Origin: Oscillatoriales cyanobacterium | GTDB taxonomy: Bacteria; Cyanobacteriota; Cyanobacteriia; CACIAM-69d | Direction: 5' to 3' | DNA length: 33,338 nt | Assembly: GCA_004292515.1 (NCBI GenBank) | Contig: RDXB01000063.1 | Location: 1 to 33,338 of the forward strand | Shown here: positions 7,995-28,246 of the stretch, piece after piece | How positions within the stretch are numbered: position 1 is the stretch's first letter | Layout of the letters: each line of letters opens with the position of its first letter | Translations under genes and position numbers: made by a program | Notes under the pieces: model-generated | Database searches by the model: none | Told to the model about the DNA's origin: nothing | The model's input: the letters and a program-made list of their open reading frames with translations, nothing else

Positions 7995-9125
7995 ATGCGA
8001 ATTGCCCTATTCACCGAAACTTTTCTGCCCAAAATCGACGGCATTGTGACTCGGCTTCGTCACACCATTGACCATCTGCAAAAAATGGGTGATGAAGTCT
8101 TAATCGTCACACCAGATCTGGGACTAAAAGATTACAATGGCTCAAAAGTTTTCGGTGTTTCGGGTTTTCCGCTGCCGCAATATCCTGAACTCAAAATCGC
8201 AATTCCCCGCCCCGCCATTGGTCGAGAACTCGATCAATTTCGCCCCGATTTAATTCATGTGGTCAACCCAGCCGTGGTTGGTTTGGGTGGCATCTATTAC
8301 GCCAAAACTCGGCAACTGCCCCTCGTCGCCTCCTATCACACCCACCTGCCCCAATATCTGCAACATTACGGCTTAGGAATGCTCGAAGGATTGCTGTGGG
8401 AACTGCTAAAAACCGCCCATAATTTAGCTGATCTCAACCTTTGCACCTCCACGGCCATGGTGCAGCAACTGAGCGATCATGGCATTGAACGCACCGCCCT
8501 TTGGCAGCGCGGCGTAGATACGGAGAGCTTCACGCCCGATCGCGCCACCGCCAAAATGCGCGACTTCCTCAGCCAGGGCCACCCCGCAGCGCCCCTGTTG
8601 ATCTATATTGGCCGCCTGTCCGCCGAAAAAGAAGTCGATCGGATTCGTCCGGTGCTCGAATCGATTCCCGGCGCGCGGTTAGCCCTTGTGGGCGACGGCC
8701 CCTACCGCGCCGAGCTGGAGGAATTTTTCGCCGGAACCAACACCCACTTTGTCGGCTATTTGCGCGGTTTGGAGCTGGCCGCCGCCTATGCCAGTGCCGA
8801 TGCGTTCATCTTCCCCTCGCGCACGGAAACCCTGGGGCTGGTGTTGTTGGAAGCAATGGCGGCTGGCTGTCCGGTGGTGGCGGCCAACGCGGGCGGCATC
8901 CCCGATATCGTCACCGACGGCGTGAACGGCTGCCTGTTTGACCCCACCGATGACCAAGGGGCCGTCACCGCCACCCAACGATTGCTGGCCGATCCGAGCC
9001 AGTTGGCCCATCTGCGATCGGCCGCCCGAGCCGAGGCTGAACGCTGGGGCTGGGCCGCTGCCACCCGCCAACTGAAGGATTACTACTACGGCATCCTCAG
9101 CGCCAACCAACGCCAAGCGGCATAA
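7995..9125 (+). CDS. sqdX: Sulfoquinovosyltransferase, sulfolipid (SQDG) synthase
   Basis: 376-residue GT4-family, GT-B-fold glycosyltransferase. SqdX moves sulfoquinovose from UDP-sulfoquinovose to diacylglycerol, making SQDG of the thylakoid membrane. Evidence: start MRIALFTETFLPKIDGIVTR, DLIHVVNPAVVGLGGIYYAK, SYHTHLPQYLQHYGLG, the donor-domain start LLIYIGRLSAEKEVDRIRPV, LVGDGPYRAEL, and the EX7E motif Glu278...Glu286 in PSRTETLGLVLLEAMAAG. The overall pattern matches cyanobacterial SqdX better than generic GT4 enzymes. The usual partner sqdB (UDP-sulfoquinovose synthase) is not in the window. It stands alone between two non-coding spacers. Confidence 0.93.
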   Translation: MRIALFTETFLPKIDGIVTRLRHTIDHLQKMGDEVLIVTPDLGLKDYNGSKVFGVSGFPLPQYPELKIAIPRPAIGRELDQFRPDLIHVVNPAVVGLGGIYYAKTRQLPLVASYHTHLPQYLQHYGLGMLEGLLWELLKTAHNLADLNLCTSTAMVQQLSDHGIERTALWQRGVDTESFTPDRATAKMRDFLSQGHPAAPLLIYIGRLSAEKEVDRIRPVLESIPGARLALVGDGPYRAELEEFFAGTNTHFVGYLRGLELAAAYASADAFIFPSRTETLGLVLLEAMAAGCPVVAANAGGIPDIVTDGVNGCLFDPTDDQGAVTATQRLLADPSQLAHLRSAARAEAERWGWAAATRQLKDYYYGILSANQRQAA

Positions 9126-9184
9126 TCATGGGGCGATCGCTACAGTTAAATCACAGGCGATCGCCCGCCCAAACCCTTCATTTT

Positions 9185-9213: not shown

Positions 9214-9282
9214 ACTCATCGAGTTTGTAGTGACCTAATCAGGGGCGATCGCCCCTCCTTCGCACCACGGGAGTTATGCACC

Positions 9283-10389
9283 ATGCTCCAGAGTCTAGAA
9301 ATCGAAAACTTCCGCCAGTTTTCCCACTTCACCATCCCCAAACTGGGCCGCATCAACCTGCTCACCGGCAAAAACAACAGCGGCAAAACCTCAATCCTAG
9401 AAGCCATTCACCTACTGATGACCACGGAGCACCCCGCTCAGGTCATGACTGAACTGCAAGTCATGAGAGGCGAGCTTTCACATACTTATGAAAATCAAAA
9501 GTATGCATCTGAAATCAGACATTTTTTCCACAATCGAGTAATTTCCAATCAAAAACCAATCAAGATCTCTGGACTCCTAAATGACCATCATAAAAGCTTT
9601 CAAATCGAAATTATTCCTGGTCATTCAAAGTCTAACAGAATCATTCCGATTGATGCTTTATCAGGAAATTTACAACAACCTGATCTGCCTCAGTTGCGAA
9701 TCAAAGTGCGAAATTTTGATGAAAGTGTTGACCAATACGAAGGCTCTCTTTCATCAGGGGAAAGAATTATTTTCTCAAGACAACCACTACAAAGTTCAAT
9801 CTTGCAGAACCAAAATTCAGAGCTAGTTTTTTTAACTAGGCTAACAGCTCAGGAGGCAGCTTATTTCTACAGTCAAGTTGTCTTACGTCCAGAAGAAGAG
9901 CGAGTGTTGGAAGCAATCAGAATTATTGAACCTGATATTCAACGAATTGCGCCTAAATCTGTTGAGGTAGAAGTATTAGGTTCAATGCCTAAAACCGGAT
10001 TCTTTGCTAAATTGAAAGATGTCGATGAAATTGTACCTATTGCGAGTATGGGAGATGGTCTCTGGAACTTGATGGGGATCATTTTGATACTGGTAAATGC
10101 CAAAGGAAAAACTCTGCTAATTGATGAGATTGATGTTGGATTACACTACAGTGTCATGGTTGATCTTTGGAAACTAATTTGGAAAATTGCTAAAGAGTTA
10201 GATATCCAAGTTTTTGCGACAACCCATAGTCAAGATTGCTGGAAAGCACTGGGGGAGCTGATCGAGGCTGAAGAGATCTATGACAATGAGATTATGATTC
10301 ATCGAATTGATGCGAAACACGATCACAGCGTCAGCTATGACACGGATAAAATCGTGATTGCTGCTGAAGACCAGGTTGAGGTTCGGTAG
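9283..10389 (+). CDS. OLD-like AAA/ABC-type ATPase of a two-gene cassette
   Basis: 368-residue ATPase of the AAA_15/AAA_21 (ABC-type, OLD-like) group. The start MLQSLEIENFRQFSHFTIPK is the classic opening beta-hairpin. Walker A is TGKNNSGKTS (28-37). There is a signature-like SMGDGLWNL, Walker B TLLIDEIDVGLH (Asp281-Glu282) and an H-loop ATTHSQD (His315). Between them lies a roughly 200-residue insert of unknown fold. No C-terminal TOPRIM is fused; instead the next gene, 2 nt later, encodes a TOPRIM-like DUF3226 protein, so the pair resembles an OLD-type nuclease split in two or a PARIS-like ATPase/TOPRIM system. From about 9440 the gene is AT-rich (roughly 35-40% GC by eye) and contains no GCGATCGC, unlike its surroundings: a sign of transfer. 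A role in phage defence is inferred, not shown. Confidence 0.88.
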   Translation: MLQSLEIENFRQFSHFTIPKLGRINLLTGKNNSGKTSILEAIHLLMTTEHPAQVMTELQVMRGELSHTYENQKYASEIRHFFHNRVISNQKPIKISGLLNDHHKSFQIEIIPGHSKSNRIIPIDALSGNLQQPDLPQLRIKVRNFDESVDQYEGSLSSGERIIFSRQPLQSSILQNQNSELVFLTRLTAQEAAYFYSQVVLRPEEERVLEAIRIIEPDIQRIAPKSVEVEVLGSMPKTGFFAKLKDVDEIVPIASMGDGLWNLMGIILILVNAKGKTLLIDEIDVGLHYSVMVDLWKLIWKIAKELDIQVFATTHSQDCWKALGELIEAEEIYDNEIMIHRIDAKHDHSVSYDTDKIVIAAEDQVEVR

Positions 10390-10391
10390 AG

Positions 10392-11069
10392 ATGAGTTCA
10401 GCAAGTCGCAAATCGAGAATTTTGTTTGTCGAAGGAAGTAGCGACAAAACAATCGTTAGCGAAATTCTCAATATCTATCTACCGCACTGGAAAATAACTA
10501 AAAAAAGATCGGGATCATCACAGCCACAGATCGATATTCAAGATCAACGAGGAATTAGCAATATAACGCCGAACAAAATATTCAATCAACTAGCCGATCC
10601 CAACGTATCTGTTTTAGGGATTGTGATTGATGCTGATGATAGTGCCTCAGATCAATGGAGTGAAATTTGTCAATCTTGTCAATTGGTTGAGCAATTGAAT
10701 TCGATTTCATTCCCTAACCAAATTCCTGAAAATGGGTTTATTTGCTCAGTTACTGATGATCAAACGTTTGGGATCTGGATGATGCCAGATCATCGATCGC
10801 CCGGAATGCTAGAAACCCTACTATCTCAGCTCATCCCCAGTAATCGCGAGAATCTATGGATACATTTACAGGACTCCGTTGATCAAGCAAAACGCTTAGG
10901 TGCGCCATTCAGCAACCATCATTTAGACAAAGCACGGATCTACACATGGTTGGCTTGGCATCATAAACCTGGTGCATGGATCAAAACTGGAGAGCGTGCT
11001 GTTTTCAATTTTGATCATCCCCAGGTTCATGCTTTTGTGGACTGGCTAAAGACGCTTTACGACTTATGA
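10392..11069 (+). CDS. DUF3226 (TOPRIM-like) protein, partner of the ATPase
   Basis: 225-residue DUF3226-type protein. Recognisable blocks: ILFVEGSSDKTIVSEIL at the start, a central VLGIVIDADDSASDQW, FGIWMMPDHRSPGMLETLL, and the C-terminal HLDKARIYTWLAWHHKPGAW and FVDWLKTLYDL. The early Glu (FVEG) plus the Asp-X-Asp (IDADD) repeat the acidic arrangement of TOPRIM nucleases and topoisomerases, so a metal-dependent nuclease or phosphotransfer role is plausible but inferred. The ATG follows the ATPase stop by 2 nt, with a ribosome site (GAGGTTCGG) inside the ATPase end: clear translational coupling. Composition is AT-rich and HIP1-free like the ATPase. No relation to the flanking sqdX or wecB genes is apparent. 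Confidence 0.87.
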   Translation: MSSASRKSRILFVEGSSDKTIVSEILNIYLPHWKITKKRSGSSQPQIDIQDQRGISNITPNKIFNQLADPNVSVLGIVIDADDSASDQWSEICQSCQLVEQLNSISFPNQIPENGFICSVTDDQTFGIWMMPDHRSPGMLETLLSQLIPSNRENLWIHLQDSVDQAKRLGAPFSNHHLDKARIYTWLAWHHKPGAWIKTGERAVFNFDHPQVHAFVDWLKTLYDL

Positions 11070-11155: not shown

Positions 11156-12301
11156 GTGGCTGACCGGATGCGAATTTGTTTGACGATCGGGACTCGACCG
11201 GAAGCGATCAAGATGGCTCCGGTGGCGCGGGCGTTTTTGCAGGACGATCGCTTCGAGACCCAAATTTTGCTGACGGGTCAGCACAAGGAAATGGTCGAGC
11301 AGGTGATGAGCTTGTTTGAACTGCGGGGCGATCGGGATTTGGCGATTATGCAGCCGGGCCAAACCCTGACGGATATTACTTGCCGTAGCTTGACGGGGTT
11401 GGGGGCGCTGTTTGCGGAGATTCAGCCCCGGTTGGTGTTGGTGCAGGGCGACACGACGACGGCTTTTGCAGCGGCCCTGGCGGCGTTTTACCAACAAATT
11501 CCGGTGGGGCACGTGGAGGCGGGCTTGCGGACGGATAACCTCTACAGTCCGTTTCCCGAGGAGGCGAATCGGCGGCTGATTTCCCAGGTGACACAGTTGC
11601 ATTTTGCACCGACGGATTTGGCGGTGGCCAATTTGCAGAAGTCGGGGGTGATGGGCGAGGTTCACCAAACGGGCAACACGGTGATCGATGCGTTGTTGGC
11701 GGTGGCGGCGAAAAATCCGCCTTGCCCGATCGCTCCCTTGGCTGGCACGGCAACGGCCGGGCGATCGCTCGATTGGGCTGCGGGACCGGTGATTTTGGCC
11801 ACGGTGCATCGCCGGGAAAATTGGGGCGACCCGCTCACCGACATCGCCGATGGGTTTTTGGGGCTGCTCGATCGCTTCCCGGATTTGTCGCTGGTGTTGC
11901 CGCTGCACCGCAACCCGACCGTGCGCGAACCGCTGATCGGTAAGTTGGGGCCCCACGATCGCGTCTTTTTGACCGAACCGCTGGACTATTCGGCACTGAT
12001 TGGAGCGATGCAGCGATCGACCCTGATTCTCACGGATTCTGGCGGCTTGCAGGAGGAAGCGCCGAGCCTGGGCAAGCCGGTGCTGGTGTTGCGCGACACG
12101 ACGGAACGACCCGAGGCGATCGCGGCGGGCACGGCCAAATTGATCGGCACGGCCACAGCGGATATGGTGCGGGAAGCGAGTCTGTTACTCAGCGATCGCG
12201 CCGCCTATGACCAAATGGCTCGGGCCGTGAATCCCTTTGGCGACGGCCGTGCCTCAGAGCGAATTGTGAAAGCCGTTTTGGATTATTTCGATCCCTCGTA
12301 G
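11156..12301 (+). CDS. wecB: UDP-N-acetylglucosamine 2-epimerase (non-hydrolysing)
   Basis: 381 residues from a GTG start (11156); an ATG at 11168 would remove four. It interconverts UDP-GlcNAc and UDP-ManNAc in the cytoplasm for surface polysaccharides. Motifs: LTIGTRPEAIKMAPV, LLTGQHKEMV, VQGDTTTA (Asp99), GHVEAGLRT (Glu121), SPFPEEANRR (Glu135/136), TVHRREN (His218) and the UDP-binding TDSGGLQEEAPSLGKPVLVL. The catalytic residues are spaced as in E. coli WecB (95/117/131/213). No other polysaccharide genes adjoin it in this window except the distant GT2 and GT4 genes. A hairpin follows the stop (12302-12333). Confidence 0.95.
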   Translation: MADRMRICLTIGTRPEAIKMAPVARAFLQDDRFETQILLTGQHKEMVEQVMSLFELRGDRDLAIMQPGQTLTDITCRSLTGLGALFAEIQPRLVLVQGDTTTAFAAALAAFYQQIPVGHVEAGLRTDNLYSPFPEEANRRLISQVTQLHFAPTDLAVANLQKSGVMGEVHQTGNTVIDALLAVAAKNPPCPIAPLAGTATAGRSLDWAAGPVILATVHRRENWGDPLTDIADGFLGLLDRFPDLSLVLPLHRNPTVREPLIGKLGPHDRVFLTEPLDYSALIGAMQRSTLILTDSGGLQEEAPSLGKPVLVLRDTTERPEAIAAGTAKLIGTATADMVREASLLLSDRAAYDQMARAVNPFGDGRASERIVKAVLDYFDPS

Positions 12302-25877: not shown

Positions 25878-26837
25878 ATGGCTAAAGGCTTGTTTGGATT
25901 AGGGCAACGTGATCGCCGACCTTGGTTGCGAGTGAGCCTGCGACTGCGTGGATCGGTTGTGCCCACGATTGCGCCCCGTGTGGTTTTGTGTGGTGGTTTT
26001 GCTGGGCTGATCAGTATTCTCCATGCCTTGAAAGTTCCGGTGGCGCATCCCGAGTGGTCGAATGTGGTGCCCAGTTTGGTGCTGGGCTTGCTGTTAGTCT
26101 TCCGCACCAATACTGCCTACGATCGCTTTTGGGAAGGACGCAAGTTGTGGGGATCAATCACCAATACATCCCGCAATTTAGGTCGCCAAATTTGGGTGGC
26201 TGTGCATGAATCAACACCCAGCGTTCGGGAGCAAAAAGTGGTGGCGCTCAAGTTGATCGCGGCCTTTGCCGGGGCGACTAAGCAACACCTGCGATCGGCA
26301 CCAGTGATGGAAGAGGTGGGCGACTTAGTGCCGCTAGATCTGCATGATCATCTCGCCCTTGCCAACCATGGCCCGTTGGAAATCTCCGTGAGAATTGCGA
26401 CATTTCTAGAAGACCAACGCGATCGGGGAAACCTAACCCAATATCAACTAGCCTCACTTCACGGCTTGTTAGATCTTTTGGTCGATGCTTTGGGCGGCTG
26501 TGAGCGAATTTTGCGCACGCCCATGCCCTTTGCCTATGCAATTCACCTGCGCCAATTACTCTTGCTCTATTGCCTAATTTTGCCTTTTGAGCTGGTGGCA
26601 AAAGTTGGTCCTTGGACGGCGATGTTGGTGACGATTATTTCCTTCACGTTGTTTGGGATTGAGGAAATTGGGGAAGAAATTGAAAATCCCTTTGGCACTG
26701 ATCCCAACGATTTGCCTTTGGATCTGATTTGCCGCACCATTCGCCAAAATATGCAGGATCTGACTCAGCAGGGTCTGATTCAGCAGGATCTAACTCAGCA
26801 GGATCTGACGCAAATTGATCCCCCCATGTCGCCATAA
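25878..26837 (+). CDS. Bestrophin-family (UPF0187) anion channel
   Basis: 319 residues. Characteristic features: basic N-terminus, then helix RVVLCGGFAGLISILHALKV, VVPSLVLGLLLVFRTNTAYD RFWEGRKLWGSITNTSRNL (the strongly conserved FRxNxAYxRFWEGRxLW block of bacterial bestrophins), LHGLLDLLVDALGGCERILR TPMPFAYAIHLRQLLLLYCL, and FTLFGIEEIGEEIENPFGTD PNDLPLD. Cyanobacterial and algal relatives act as thylakoid chloride/bicarbonate channels; here the location is inferred. The last about 25 residues are a slipped repeat (DLTQQ-GLIQQ-DLTQQ-DLTQ) from 15-bp DNA repeats. It begins 196 nt after the TonB-like gene. Confidence 0.9.
   Translation: MAKGLFGLGQRDRRPWLRVSLRLRGSVVPTIAPRVVLCGGFAGLISILHALKVPVAHPEWSNVVPSLVLGLLLVFRTNTAYDRFWEGRKLWGSITNTSRNLGRQIWVAVHESTPSVREQKVVALKLIAAFAGATKQHLRSAPVMEEVGDLVPLDLHDHLALANHGPLEISVRIATFLEDQRDRGNLTQYQLASLHGLLDLLVDALGGCERILRTPMPFAYAIHLRQLLLLYCLILPFELVAKVGPWTAMLVTIISFTLFGIEEIGEEIENPFGTDPNDLPLDLICRTIRQNMQDLTQQGLIQQDLTQQDLTQIDPPMSP
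26757..26816 (+). repeat. 15-bp tandem repeats at the bestrophin C-terminus
   Basis: Four 15-nt units (GATCTGACTCAGCAG, GGTCTGATTCAGCAG, GATCTAACTCAGCAG, GATCTGACGCAAATT) encode the DLTQQ pentapeptide repeat. A slippage expansion that remains in frame. Confidence 0.85.
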
Positions 26838-26852
26838 TCCAACTCCACCCAC

Positions 26853-26876
26853 CATCCCATCCCATCCCATCCCATT
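26853..26876. repeat. CATCC microsatellite before the first CpcT/CpeT gene
   Basis: The 5-bp unit CATCC is repeated four times and followed by CATTC, directly ahead of the ATG at 26878, where a ribosome site would normally be. No Shine-Dalgarno is visible. Length variation here could alter translation. Confidence 0.65.
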
Positions 26877-26877
26877 C

Positions 26878-27465
26878 ATGATCAACCCTGCTGATTGGCG
26901 CGATCGCTTCGCCACCTATCTAACCGGCGCATTTGACAACCGAGAACAGGCGATCGCTGAACCTGCTTGGTATGTGCATGTGCGGCTGTGGCATCGACCG
27001 ATCGCCCTGTTTGGTTCTGACAGCCTGGGATTTTATGCCGAGCAAGCCAGCTCCCCCACGTTCGATCGCCCCTATCGGCCGCGCGTTTTTCAAATTCGAC
27101 CGACAGATGATCCCAGCTCGCCGTGGCAAGCCGTTTATTTTGCTCTCCAGCAGTCGGAGCGGTGGCGGGGGGCAGGACTAGATCCTGACCGCCTGCGATC
27201 GTTGACCCTCGACGACTTGGAATCATTGCCCGGTTGCCATTTGTCGATCGCCCCGTTGGATGGCGGCGCAGGATTTCGAGCTACGCCGCCGCCCGATTGT
27301 CGCTGTTGCTTCACGGTCGATGGACAATTGCGACAAGTGCAACTGGGATTTGAAGCGCGACCCGACGCTTTCGATAGCTTCGACAAGGGGATCGATCCCA
27401 ACACGGGCAAATCGCTGTGGGGGGCAATCATGGGGCCGTTTCGCTATCGTCGGATTGGCGATTAA
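26878..27465 (+). CDS. CpcT/CpeT-family phycobiliprotein chromophore lyase (paralog 1)
   Basis: 195 residues from the ATG at 26878 (upstream frame PPCRHNPTPPTIPSHP is microsatellite). CpcT/CpeT lyases attach a bilin to a cysteine of phycocyanin or phycoerythrin beta subunits, folding as a beta-barrel. Family blocks: FDNREQAIAEPAWYVHVRLW HRP, LGFYAEQA, RPYRPRVFQIRPTDD, YFALQQSERWRGA, LPGCHLSI, and the C-terminal FEARPDAFDSFDKGIDPNTG KSLWGAIMGPFRYRR. It is followed 166 nt later by a second member. Substrate (phycocyanin or phycoerythrin type) cannot be decided from sequence here. Confidence 0.9.
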   Translation: MINPADWRDRFATYLTGAFDNREQAIAEPAWYVHVRLWHRPIALFGSDSLGFYAEQASSPTFDRPYRPRVFQIRPTDDPSSPWQAVYFALQQSERWRGAGLDPDRLRSLTLDDLESLPGCHLSIAPLDGGAGFRATPPPDCRCCFTVDGQLRQVQLGFEARPDAFDSFDKGIDPNTGKSLWGAIMGPFRYRRIGD

Positions 27466-27631
27466 CCCGAATTAGGGGAAGATCCTCGGGGCGATCGCAG
27501 CGCCTAGTTGTGGCTGATCCCCAGTGGGTTGGTTCCAAGCTCCATCAGCCTCCATTAACCCGCTGAGACCAGTGCAGCGAGCTATCTCGTTAAACCGTCT
27601 CGTTAAATTGTCATTTTCAAATCAACACACC

Positions 27632-28246
27632 ATGACCCAAGCCACTGCCCCGATCGCCCCGACTGCCGATCTCGTCACCCTGGCCCAGTGGATGGCCTCC
27701 GACTTTAGTAACCAGGCCCAAGCCTTCGAAAATCCGCCCTTTTTTGCCCATATTCGGGTTTGTATGCGCCCGCTGTCGATCGCACTGCTCGGGGGCATTA
27801 GCCTCTACGTGGAGCAAGCCTACGACTACATGCTCAACCAGCCCTATCGAGTGCGGGTGCTGAAGTTGACCACTGTGGATGATCGGATCGTGATCGAAAA
27901 CTACGGTGTGAAAAATGAGCAGGAATTTTTTGGCGCATCCCGCCAGCCAGAACGCCTGCAAACCCTGACGGCCGATCGCCTAGAAAAACTCTGCCACTGC
28001 AACTTTCTGGTCGATCGCGTCGGCGAGGTCTTCAAGGGCGAAGTGGAACCGGGCAAAGCCTGCATGGTGACTCGCAAGGGCAAAGAAACCTACCTCGATA
28101 GCCAATTTGAAATTTCGGCCAATCGCTTTATCAGTTGGGATCGAGGGCGCGACCCGGAAACCGATGAGCACCTGTGGGGCGCAGTGGCTGGTCCCTTTGA
28201 TTTTGTGAAAGTGGCGAGTTTTGCCGATGAAGTGGTGACCGGCTAG
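27632..28246 (+). CDS. CpcT/CpeT-family phycobiliprotein chromophore lyase (paralog 2)
   Basis: 204 residues from the ATG at 27632; a longer frame from 27524 is not conserved-looking. Blocks: MASDFSNQAQAFENPPFFAH IRVCMRPL, GISLYVEQAYDYMLNQPYRV RVLKL, LEKLCHCNFLVDRVGEVFKG EVEPGKACMVTRKGKETYLD, and ISWDRGRDPETDEHLWGAVA GPFDFVK. This is closer to the classical CpcT pattern (YVEQAYD...NQPYRxRVL, CxVxRKGxxTYLDS) than the preceding gene, so it is the better candidate for the lyase acting on the phycocyanin beta-subunit distal cysteine. No cpc genes lie nearby. Confidence 0.92.
   Translation: MTQATAPIAPTADLVTLAQWMASDFSNQAQAFENPPFFAHIRVCMRPLSIALLGGISLYVEQAYDYMLNQPYRVRVLKLTTVDDRIVIENYGVKNEQEFFGASRQPERLQTLTADRLEKLCHCNFLVDRVGEVFKGEVEPGKACMVTRKGKETYLDSQFEISANRFISWDRGRDPETDEHLWGAVAGPFDFVKVASFADEVVTG

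Follow-up and report, generated by a model that had tools for sequence, protein, structure and literature searches.

The window analysed here, a stretch of 33,338 nucleotides (positions 1 to 33,338 of contig RDXB01000063.1, assembly GCA_004292515.1, of an Oscillatoriales cyanobacterium), contains two adjacent genes between a glycosyltransferase gene and an epimerase gene (Table 1). The first ORF is intact and encodes an ATPase of 368 aa, the second encodes a protein of 225 aa, and 2 nt separate the ATPase stop from the next start, so the two-gene cassette described in the first-pass annotation of the window was recovered as such. The ATPase matched Pfam AAA_15 (E=3.2e-29), with AAA_21 also over the cut-off, and the second protein matched DUF3226 (PF11536, E=5.6e-53). 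The motifs previously read from the translations were likewise found in place, i.e. Walker A, Walker B (D281-E282) and H-loop (H315) in the ATPase and a Glu plus Asp-X-Asp (E14, D80-A-D82) in the DUF3226 protein; all of them are (nearly) invariant across 72 relatives. Among these relatives E14, D80 and E141 of the DUF3226 protein are invariant, and D82 is nearly so. The ATPase ends in E-V-R (residues 366–368, window 10378-10386), of which the E and the R are invariant in the 72 relatives and the V nearly so; this unusually conserved terminus may be a contact with the effector.

Table 1. Features of the ATPase-DUF3226 locus (positions in the window)
Feature	Position	Strand	Basis or remark
GT4 glycosyltransferase, sqdX-like	7995..9125	+	Left flank in window genome only; ~30 kb off in both congeners
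ABC/AAA_15-type ATPase, PDC-M38A family, sensor/antitoxin-like component	9283..10389	+	Pfam, PADLOC; model pLDDT 86; Z 18.4 PtuA, 17.1 GajA, 16.8 AriA
Constant block 1: ATPase codons 1-42	9283..9408	+	Host-like GC3; 100% aa identity in Limnothrix
Walker A, TGKNNSGKTS, residues 28-37	9364..9393	+	Sequence; (near-)invariant in 72 relatives
Exchangeable module 1: ATPase codons ~43-249 (to 269 vs G002)	9409..10029	+	Hypervariable, AT-rich; candidate trigger-recognition domain
Constant block 2: ABC signature SMGDG 255-259, Walker B LLIDEID 278-284, H-loop H315	10030..10302	+	End approximate
Exchangeable module 2: ATPase C-terminal tail from codon ~340 and whole DUF3226 gene	10303..11069	+	Start approximate, breakpoints codons 339-365
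DUF3226 TOPRIM-fold protein, PDC-M38B family, candidate effector nuclease	10392..11069	+	Pfam, PADLOC; model pLDDT 88; fold match
TOPRIM Glu14, VEG motif	10431..10433	+	Invariant among relatives
TOPRIM Asp80-Ala-Asp82 (DxD)	10629..10637	+	D80 invariant, D82 nearly invariant
Glu141 in GMLE, possible third acidic metal-site residue	10812..10814	+	Invariant; role inferred
wecB-like UDP-GlcNAc 2-epimerase	11156..12301	+	TIGR00236 E=2.9e-146; conserved downstream flank, three Limnothrix species, 93-99% aa

The predicted model of the ATPase (mean pLDDT 86) showed structural matches to PtuA of Septu (Z 18.4), Rad50/SMC heads, GajA (17.1) and AriA (16.8). For the DUF3226 model (mean pLDDT 88) these were PH0156 (Z 12.5), an OLD TOPRIM (6nk8, Z 10.0, 176 residues aligned), the TOPRIM effector of retron Eco2 (9.5), GajA (7.5) and AriB (6.9). 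Because unrelated folds in the same list score up to Z ~7.3, the GajA and AriB rows by themselves are weak; the OLD and Eco2 rows lie higher. A sequence search of the DUF3226 protein against the PDB gave no significant match, and the TOPRIM assignment is therefore based on the fold comparison and the motifs. Foldseek returned nothing under E 1e-3 with this model, its top rows being retron Eco2 and PARIS, and hhalign gave a weak alignment (probability 39%, E 3e-4) with a fused OLD-type ATPase-TOPRIM protein (L016, G053:C38), in a region that includes the VEG and D-x-D motifs. Judged by its sequence, the DUF3226 protein has the catalytic Glu and DxD of OLD-type TOPRIM nucleases (E14, D80, D82). 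In view of the fold matches and the conserved E14, D80, D82 and E141, the predicted protein is of the TOPRIM fold with the usual acidic residues, and presumably an active nuclease. The effector part that had been assigned to it is thus supported by the PH0156, OLD and Eco2 matches of the predicted model and by the conserved metal-site residues.

Comparison with the PADLOC models gave full-length matches of the ATPase to PDC-M38A (9.2e-81) and AbiLi (3.2e-60), and a match to AriA (1.5e-29). The sole match of the effector was PDC-M38B, again over the full length (7.8e-46), and the PDC-M38A/B models matched all 72 relatives. Since both proteins fit, the pair is, at the level of sequence, the PADLOC candidate system PDC-M38 and already catalogued; there is no family-level difference, and the partner genes are adjacent (2 nt gap). 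PDC-M38 is a computational candidate, and module exchange (see below) is apparently absent from its description. No paper naming DUF3226 or PDC-M38 was found in the open-licence literature, and we know of no member of the family that has faced phage challenge.

In layout the pair resembles both PARIS and AbiL, but it is a member of neither, because its effector matches neither AriB nor AbiLii. As in PARIS, an AAA_15/AAA_21 ATPase and a TOPRIM effector are encoded by separate genes (Z 16.8 to AriA, 6.9 to AriB). The published detection rule for PARIS, however, requires a DUF4435 effector (AriB) (PMC9122126), whereas the effector here is DUF3226, in which neither AriB (PADLOC, E<=1) nor DUF4435 (Pfam, E<=0.1) was detected; moreover, the AriA score of the ATPase is far below that of PDC-M38A. 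The earlier description of the pair as related to, yet distinct from, PARIS therefore holds (PDC-M38A 9e-81 vs AriA 1.5e-29, effector PDC-M38B only). With AbiL the pair shares two genes for an ATPase and a TOPRIM-type effector, as well as the full-length AbiLi match, but AbiLii is RloB/OLD_TOPRIM-like (PMC10440598), and in our effector neither AbiLii (E<=1) nor RloB (E<=0.1) was found. OLD, GajA (Gabija) and retron Eco2 likewise combine an ABC ATPase with a TOPRIM nuclease (TOPRIM Z 10.0, 7.5 and 9.5, respectively), but there the two domains are fused in a single polypeptide or joined to a reverse transcriptase. OLD classes 1–3 have the ATPase and the TOPRIM in one polypeptide, and the pair, with its two genes, falls outside them.

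An ATPase of the same family was present directly upstream of the DUF3226 gene in 81 of 82 relatives, which were taken from both genomes and viral contigs; the two genes are mostly 2–4 nt apart, and the sole exception to the pairing lies at a contig end. The ATPase-DUF3226 unit is real, far beyond chance. The relatives belong to Cyanobacteria, Desulfobacterota, Planctomycetota, Chloroflexi, Gammaproteobacteria and Myxococcota, and no DUF3226 relatives were found in phage records at E 1e-5. Within the cyanobacterial phylum the family was over the cut-off in 66 of the 386 genomes, with up to 5 copies per genome, some of them broken. The broken or truncated copies (ATPase fragment, shortened DUF3226) at L073, L106, L109 and L015/L020 are suggestive of decay or turnover.

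The cyanobacterial pair is mostly found alone among housekeeping genes and rarely in a defence island, and a scan of 103 neighbour proteins (E<=1e-25) gave few matches to defence models. One congener, G001, carries a full-length Type IIG restriction gene (1204 bits) one gene from the pair. The Type IIG gene of the window genome, 82% identical to that of G001, adjoins a displaced Dps gene. Among the other relatives, the pair at L115 lies near ShosTA and two integrase-like genes, that on a Plesiomonas plasmid directly after P2-type tail genes, and that on an Acinetobacter mobilizable plasmid beside BrnTA. The viral contig L114 contains a Zot-family (inovirus) gene (1276-2535) 4.4 kb from the pair, suggesting that the pair is carried by, or next to, a filamentous prophage. 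PARIS was discovered in prophage and island placement of such kind (PMC9122126).

In all three Limnothrix species examined (the Limnothrix-type window genome and the congeners G001 and G002) the pair is located immediately upstream of wecB, and the match in G001 is the same locus as in Limnothrix sp. CACIAM 69d. Three genomes of sister genera contain wecB with no such ATPase beside it (two were examined in detail). The proposal in the first-pass annotation of an insertion at a chromosomal hot spot was not upheld: synteny across the genus rules out a recent event of this type, and the variable element is formed by the internal modules of the pair, not by its presence. The annotation had also linked universal, syntenic presence in the genus to a core gene; such presence was indeed found in Limnothrix, but a core housekeeping gene is unlikely because of the patchy distribution in the phylum (66/386) and the extreme polymorphism. 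A mobile cassette bounded by direct or inverted repeats was considered as well and rejected, as only short, chance-level repeats were found. Among these, upstream of the ATPase, are two copies of an 18-nt sequence with the HIP1-like GGCGATCGCC motif (window 9149-9166 and 9237-9254).

With respect to the flanking genes, the name wecB was confirmed (TIGR00236), while sqdX is a plausible name for a gene that the models establish as a GT4 glycosyltransferase only. The left neighbour of the pair is this sqdX-like gene in the window genome and Dps in both congeners, and homology to both congeners ends ~40 nt upstream of the ATPase start. Because the left neighbour differs, the window genome has either undergone a rearrangement near 9240 or contains an assembly join there; the second HIP1-like copy lies near this point. 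The window genome has its Dps gene divided between two other contigs, C83 and C43. Congener G001 contains a second, divergent ATPase-DUF3226 pair (L007, G001:C1:10155-11919). Elsewhere in the window, at 26815-28246, there is a possible tandem duplication, consisting of neighbouring ORFs (~216 and ~240 aa) that share similar motifs and that we take to be CpcT/CpeT-like.

The pair had been reported to be AT-rich, and between 9.5 and 10.9 kb the G + C content is indeed lowered to ~34-47%, from 55-60% in the flanks. At third codon positions (GC3) different parts of the pair could be distinguished: GC3 was 72% in ATPase codons 1-60, 27% in codons 61-255, 45% in the C-terminal part and 37% in DUF3226, compared to 73% in wecB. 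Both Limnothrix congeners have the same profile, and this composition agrees with the module exchange described here. In comparisons among the three Limnothrix genomes, identity is 93-99% for wecB, 54-59% for the ATPase and 42-85% for DUF3226. Within the ATPase, residues 1-42 are nearly identical, the middle is 12-40% identical and the ABC core 80-90%. This middle, module 1, lies between Walker A and the ABC signature. The effector of the window is shared with G002 (85%) and not with G001 (42%).

The same pattern was found in fixed-locus copies elsewhere, namely at an alaS-containing locus of Dolichospermum/Anabaena (12 loci), in other Nostocales (11), Microcystis (5) and Pseudanabaena (3). 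In these comparisons each species was represented by one genome. In 55 syntenic pairs of copies, selected for a flank identity of at least 85%, the ATPase core was on average 93% identical (minimum 81%); in these pairs, which are mutually non-independent, the middle region was below 50% in 32 of 55 and DUF3226 below 70% in 26 of 55. Both modules were changed in 19 of the pairs, the middle only in 13 and DUF3226 only in 7. A sandwich pattern (both gene ends at least 75% identical, with a 50-residue window below 40%) was present in 32 of 52 ATPase pairs and in 1 of 146 flanking gene pairs at the same loci. The Microcystis copies L092 and L104, for example, are 92-99% identical at the nucleotide level in the flank, in the first ~42 codons and from codon 253 onward, with a mean of 39% in codons 43-252.

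Segmentation of the pairs showed that the right breakpoint of module 1 is recurrent (median codon 249, just before the ABC signature). Its left breakpoints fall mainly in codons 43-53 and, in a second group, in codons 67-109; values of 0 represent N-terminal length differences, not breakpoints. Module 2 starts in the ATPase tail, at codons 339-365. In the alaS group two insert classes and two effector classes are found in every possible combination, four in all (four-gamete), and AU tests rejected congruence both ways (p 1.6e-8 and 1.5e-48, values which are indicative because the groups were picked after the data had been seen). Variation in the ATPase tail followed that in DUF3226 (Spearman 0.72), while variation in the insert did not (0.19); the linkage of tail and DUF3226 may be due to physical adjacency alone. 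Orthologous copies at fixed loci thus exchange module 1 and module 2 independently, with recurrent breakpoints around a conserved core. This in-place exchange is the new part, the pair itself having been catalogued before. Hypermutation by a diversity-generating retroelement (PMC10907252) was set aside, because whole blocks of ~200 codons change, with bimodal identity and not by scattered substitutions.

It appears that selection retains the ATP-binding core and the site, and repeatedly replaces the internal block and, separately, the tail with the effector. In PARIS, an ATPase ring sequesters a TOPRIM tRNase and sets it free when a phage anti-restriction protein is encountered (PMC11455837, PMC12409363), and AbiL-related AAA/TOPRIM pairs, tested as toxin-antitoxin pairs, act as toxin and neutraliser (PMC10440598). 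By analogy with these systems, the ATPase would be the sensor and DUF3226 the effector. Our best reading, to which we assign a probability of about 0.6, is a split OLD-superfamily abortive-infection system of the PDC-M38 type, in which a phage trigger is recognised by the insert of the ATPase, a part renewed in an HsdS-like manner. Following PARIS and the tested AAA/TOPRIM pairs, the ATPase would oligomerise and keep the DUF3226 TOPRIM nuclease inactive. The hypervariable insert (codons ~43-249) would recognise a phage product, and a conformational change via the ATPase tail would then free or activate the nuclease, which would cleave nucleic acid (tRNA as AriB does, or DNA as OLD and GajA do) and stop the infected cell. 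Module 1 is accordingly a candidate recognition domain, a protein trigger being suggested by the location of the variation, and the tail plus effector are a candidate effector interface and target. The strong pairing (81/82), the TOPRIM fold, the conserved E14, D80, D82 and E141, the PtuA/GajA/AriA-like ATPase and the module exchange all support this reading, as does the defence and mobile context in some relatives; the few defence-island placements in cyanobacteria and the universal, stable placement in Limnothrix argue against it.

The chief doubt is whether the insert recognises a phage protein or nucleic acid. In the latter case the pair would be a sequence- or structure-specific nuclease, and swaps would change its DNA or RNA site as in HsdS of Type I restriction. 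A recognition region that is exchanged as a block while the chassis stays constant is typical of HsdS, and the scaffold with its exchangeable region is alike in both, although HsdS has no homology to the pair; OLD and GajA, with related folds, are DNA nucleases, and the AF2 model has several beta strands in the insert. The pair lacks a conserved methyltransferase or self-protection partner, however, and in PARIS, the nearest two-gene system whose trigger is known, a protein is sensed, so that nucleic-acid recognition seems to us unlikely, if worth keeping in mind. An addiction module, in which the ATPase neutralises a TOPRIM toxin for selfish persistence and has no immune role, is less probable still. 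AAA/TOPRIM pairs do act as toxin-antitoxin pairs in neutralisation assays (PMC10440598), and the pair occurs on small mobilizable plasmids, but addiction leaves unexplained why the insert alone is replaced independently of the toxin, and not the effector-facing tail (rho 0.19 vs 0.72), and why the placement is stable in the chromosome across whole genera; deletion of either PARIS gene, in addition, is non-toxic (PMC9122126).

A housekeeping role, like the cell-cycle role of Cran1, an archaeal ATPase of the OLD family, has a precedent for non-defence function in that family (PMC12796447) and would fit the synteny in 3/3 Limnothrix species and the stable loci in Nostocales. We consider it very improbable in view of the patchy occurrence over the cut-off (66/386 genomes, up to 5 copies, some broken), the lack of the pair in sister genera and an extreme polymorphism that is absent from neighbouring genes. 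A last alternative is ordinary rapid divergence or paralogue replacement, with no module exchange. Some divergence is to be expected with a single genome for each species, but this alternative can hardly account for the fall from 92-99% to 26-50% nucleotide identity at sharp breakpoints within one gene, for the bimodal identities and the four gametes, for the (indicative) AU rejections or for a pattern seen in just 1 of 146 control gene pairs.

An abortive-infection system that senses a phage trigger is therefore preferred, and on balance we regard the pair as an immune locus at a fixed site, the specificity of which is probably renewed by in-place homologous exchange of insert and tail-effector cassettes, with the core and both flanks as constant arms. 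The sensed trigger is known for only a minority of ATPase-TOPRIM immune systems, and the natural swaps are of value in this respect. Where codons ~43-249 are exchanged and the rest is 92-99% identical, nature has in effect performed a domain swap; such cases indicate which segment likely carries the specificity and give allele pairs for finding the phage trigger. If this reading is true, the pair would be a non-restriction immune locus that evolves via HsdS-like module exchange, and PDC-M38 would move from the list of candidates to a testable system.
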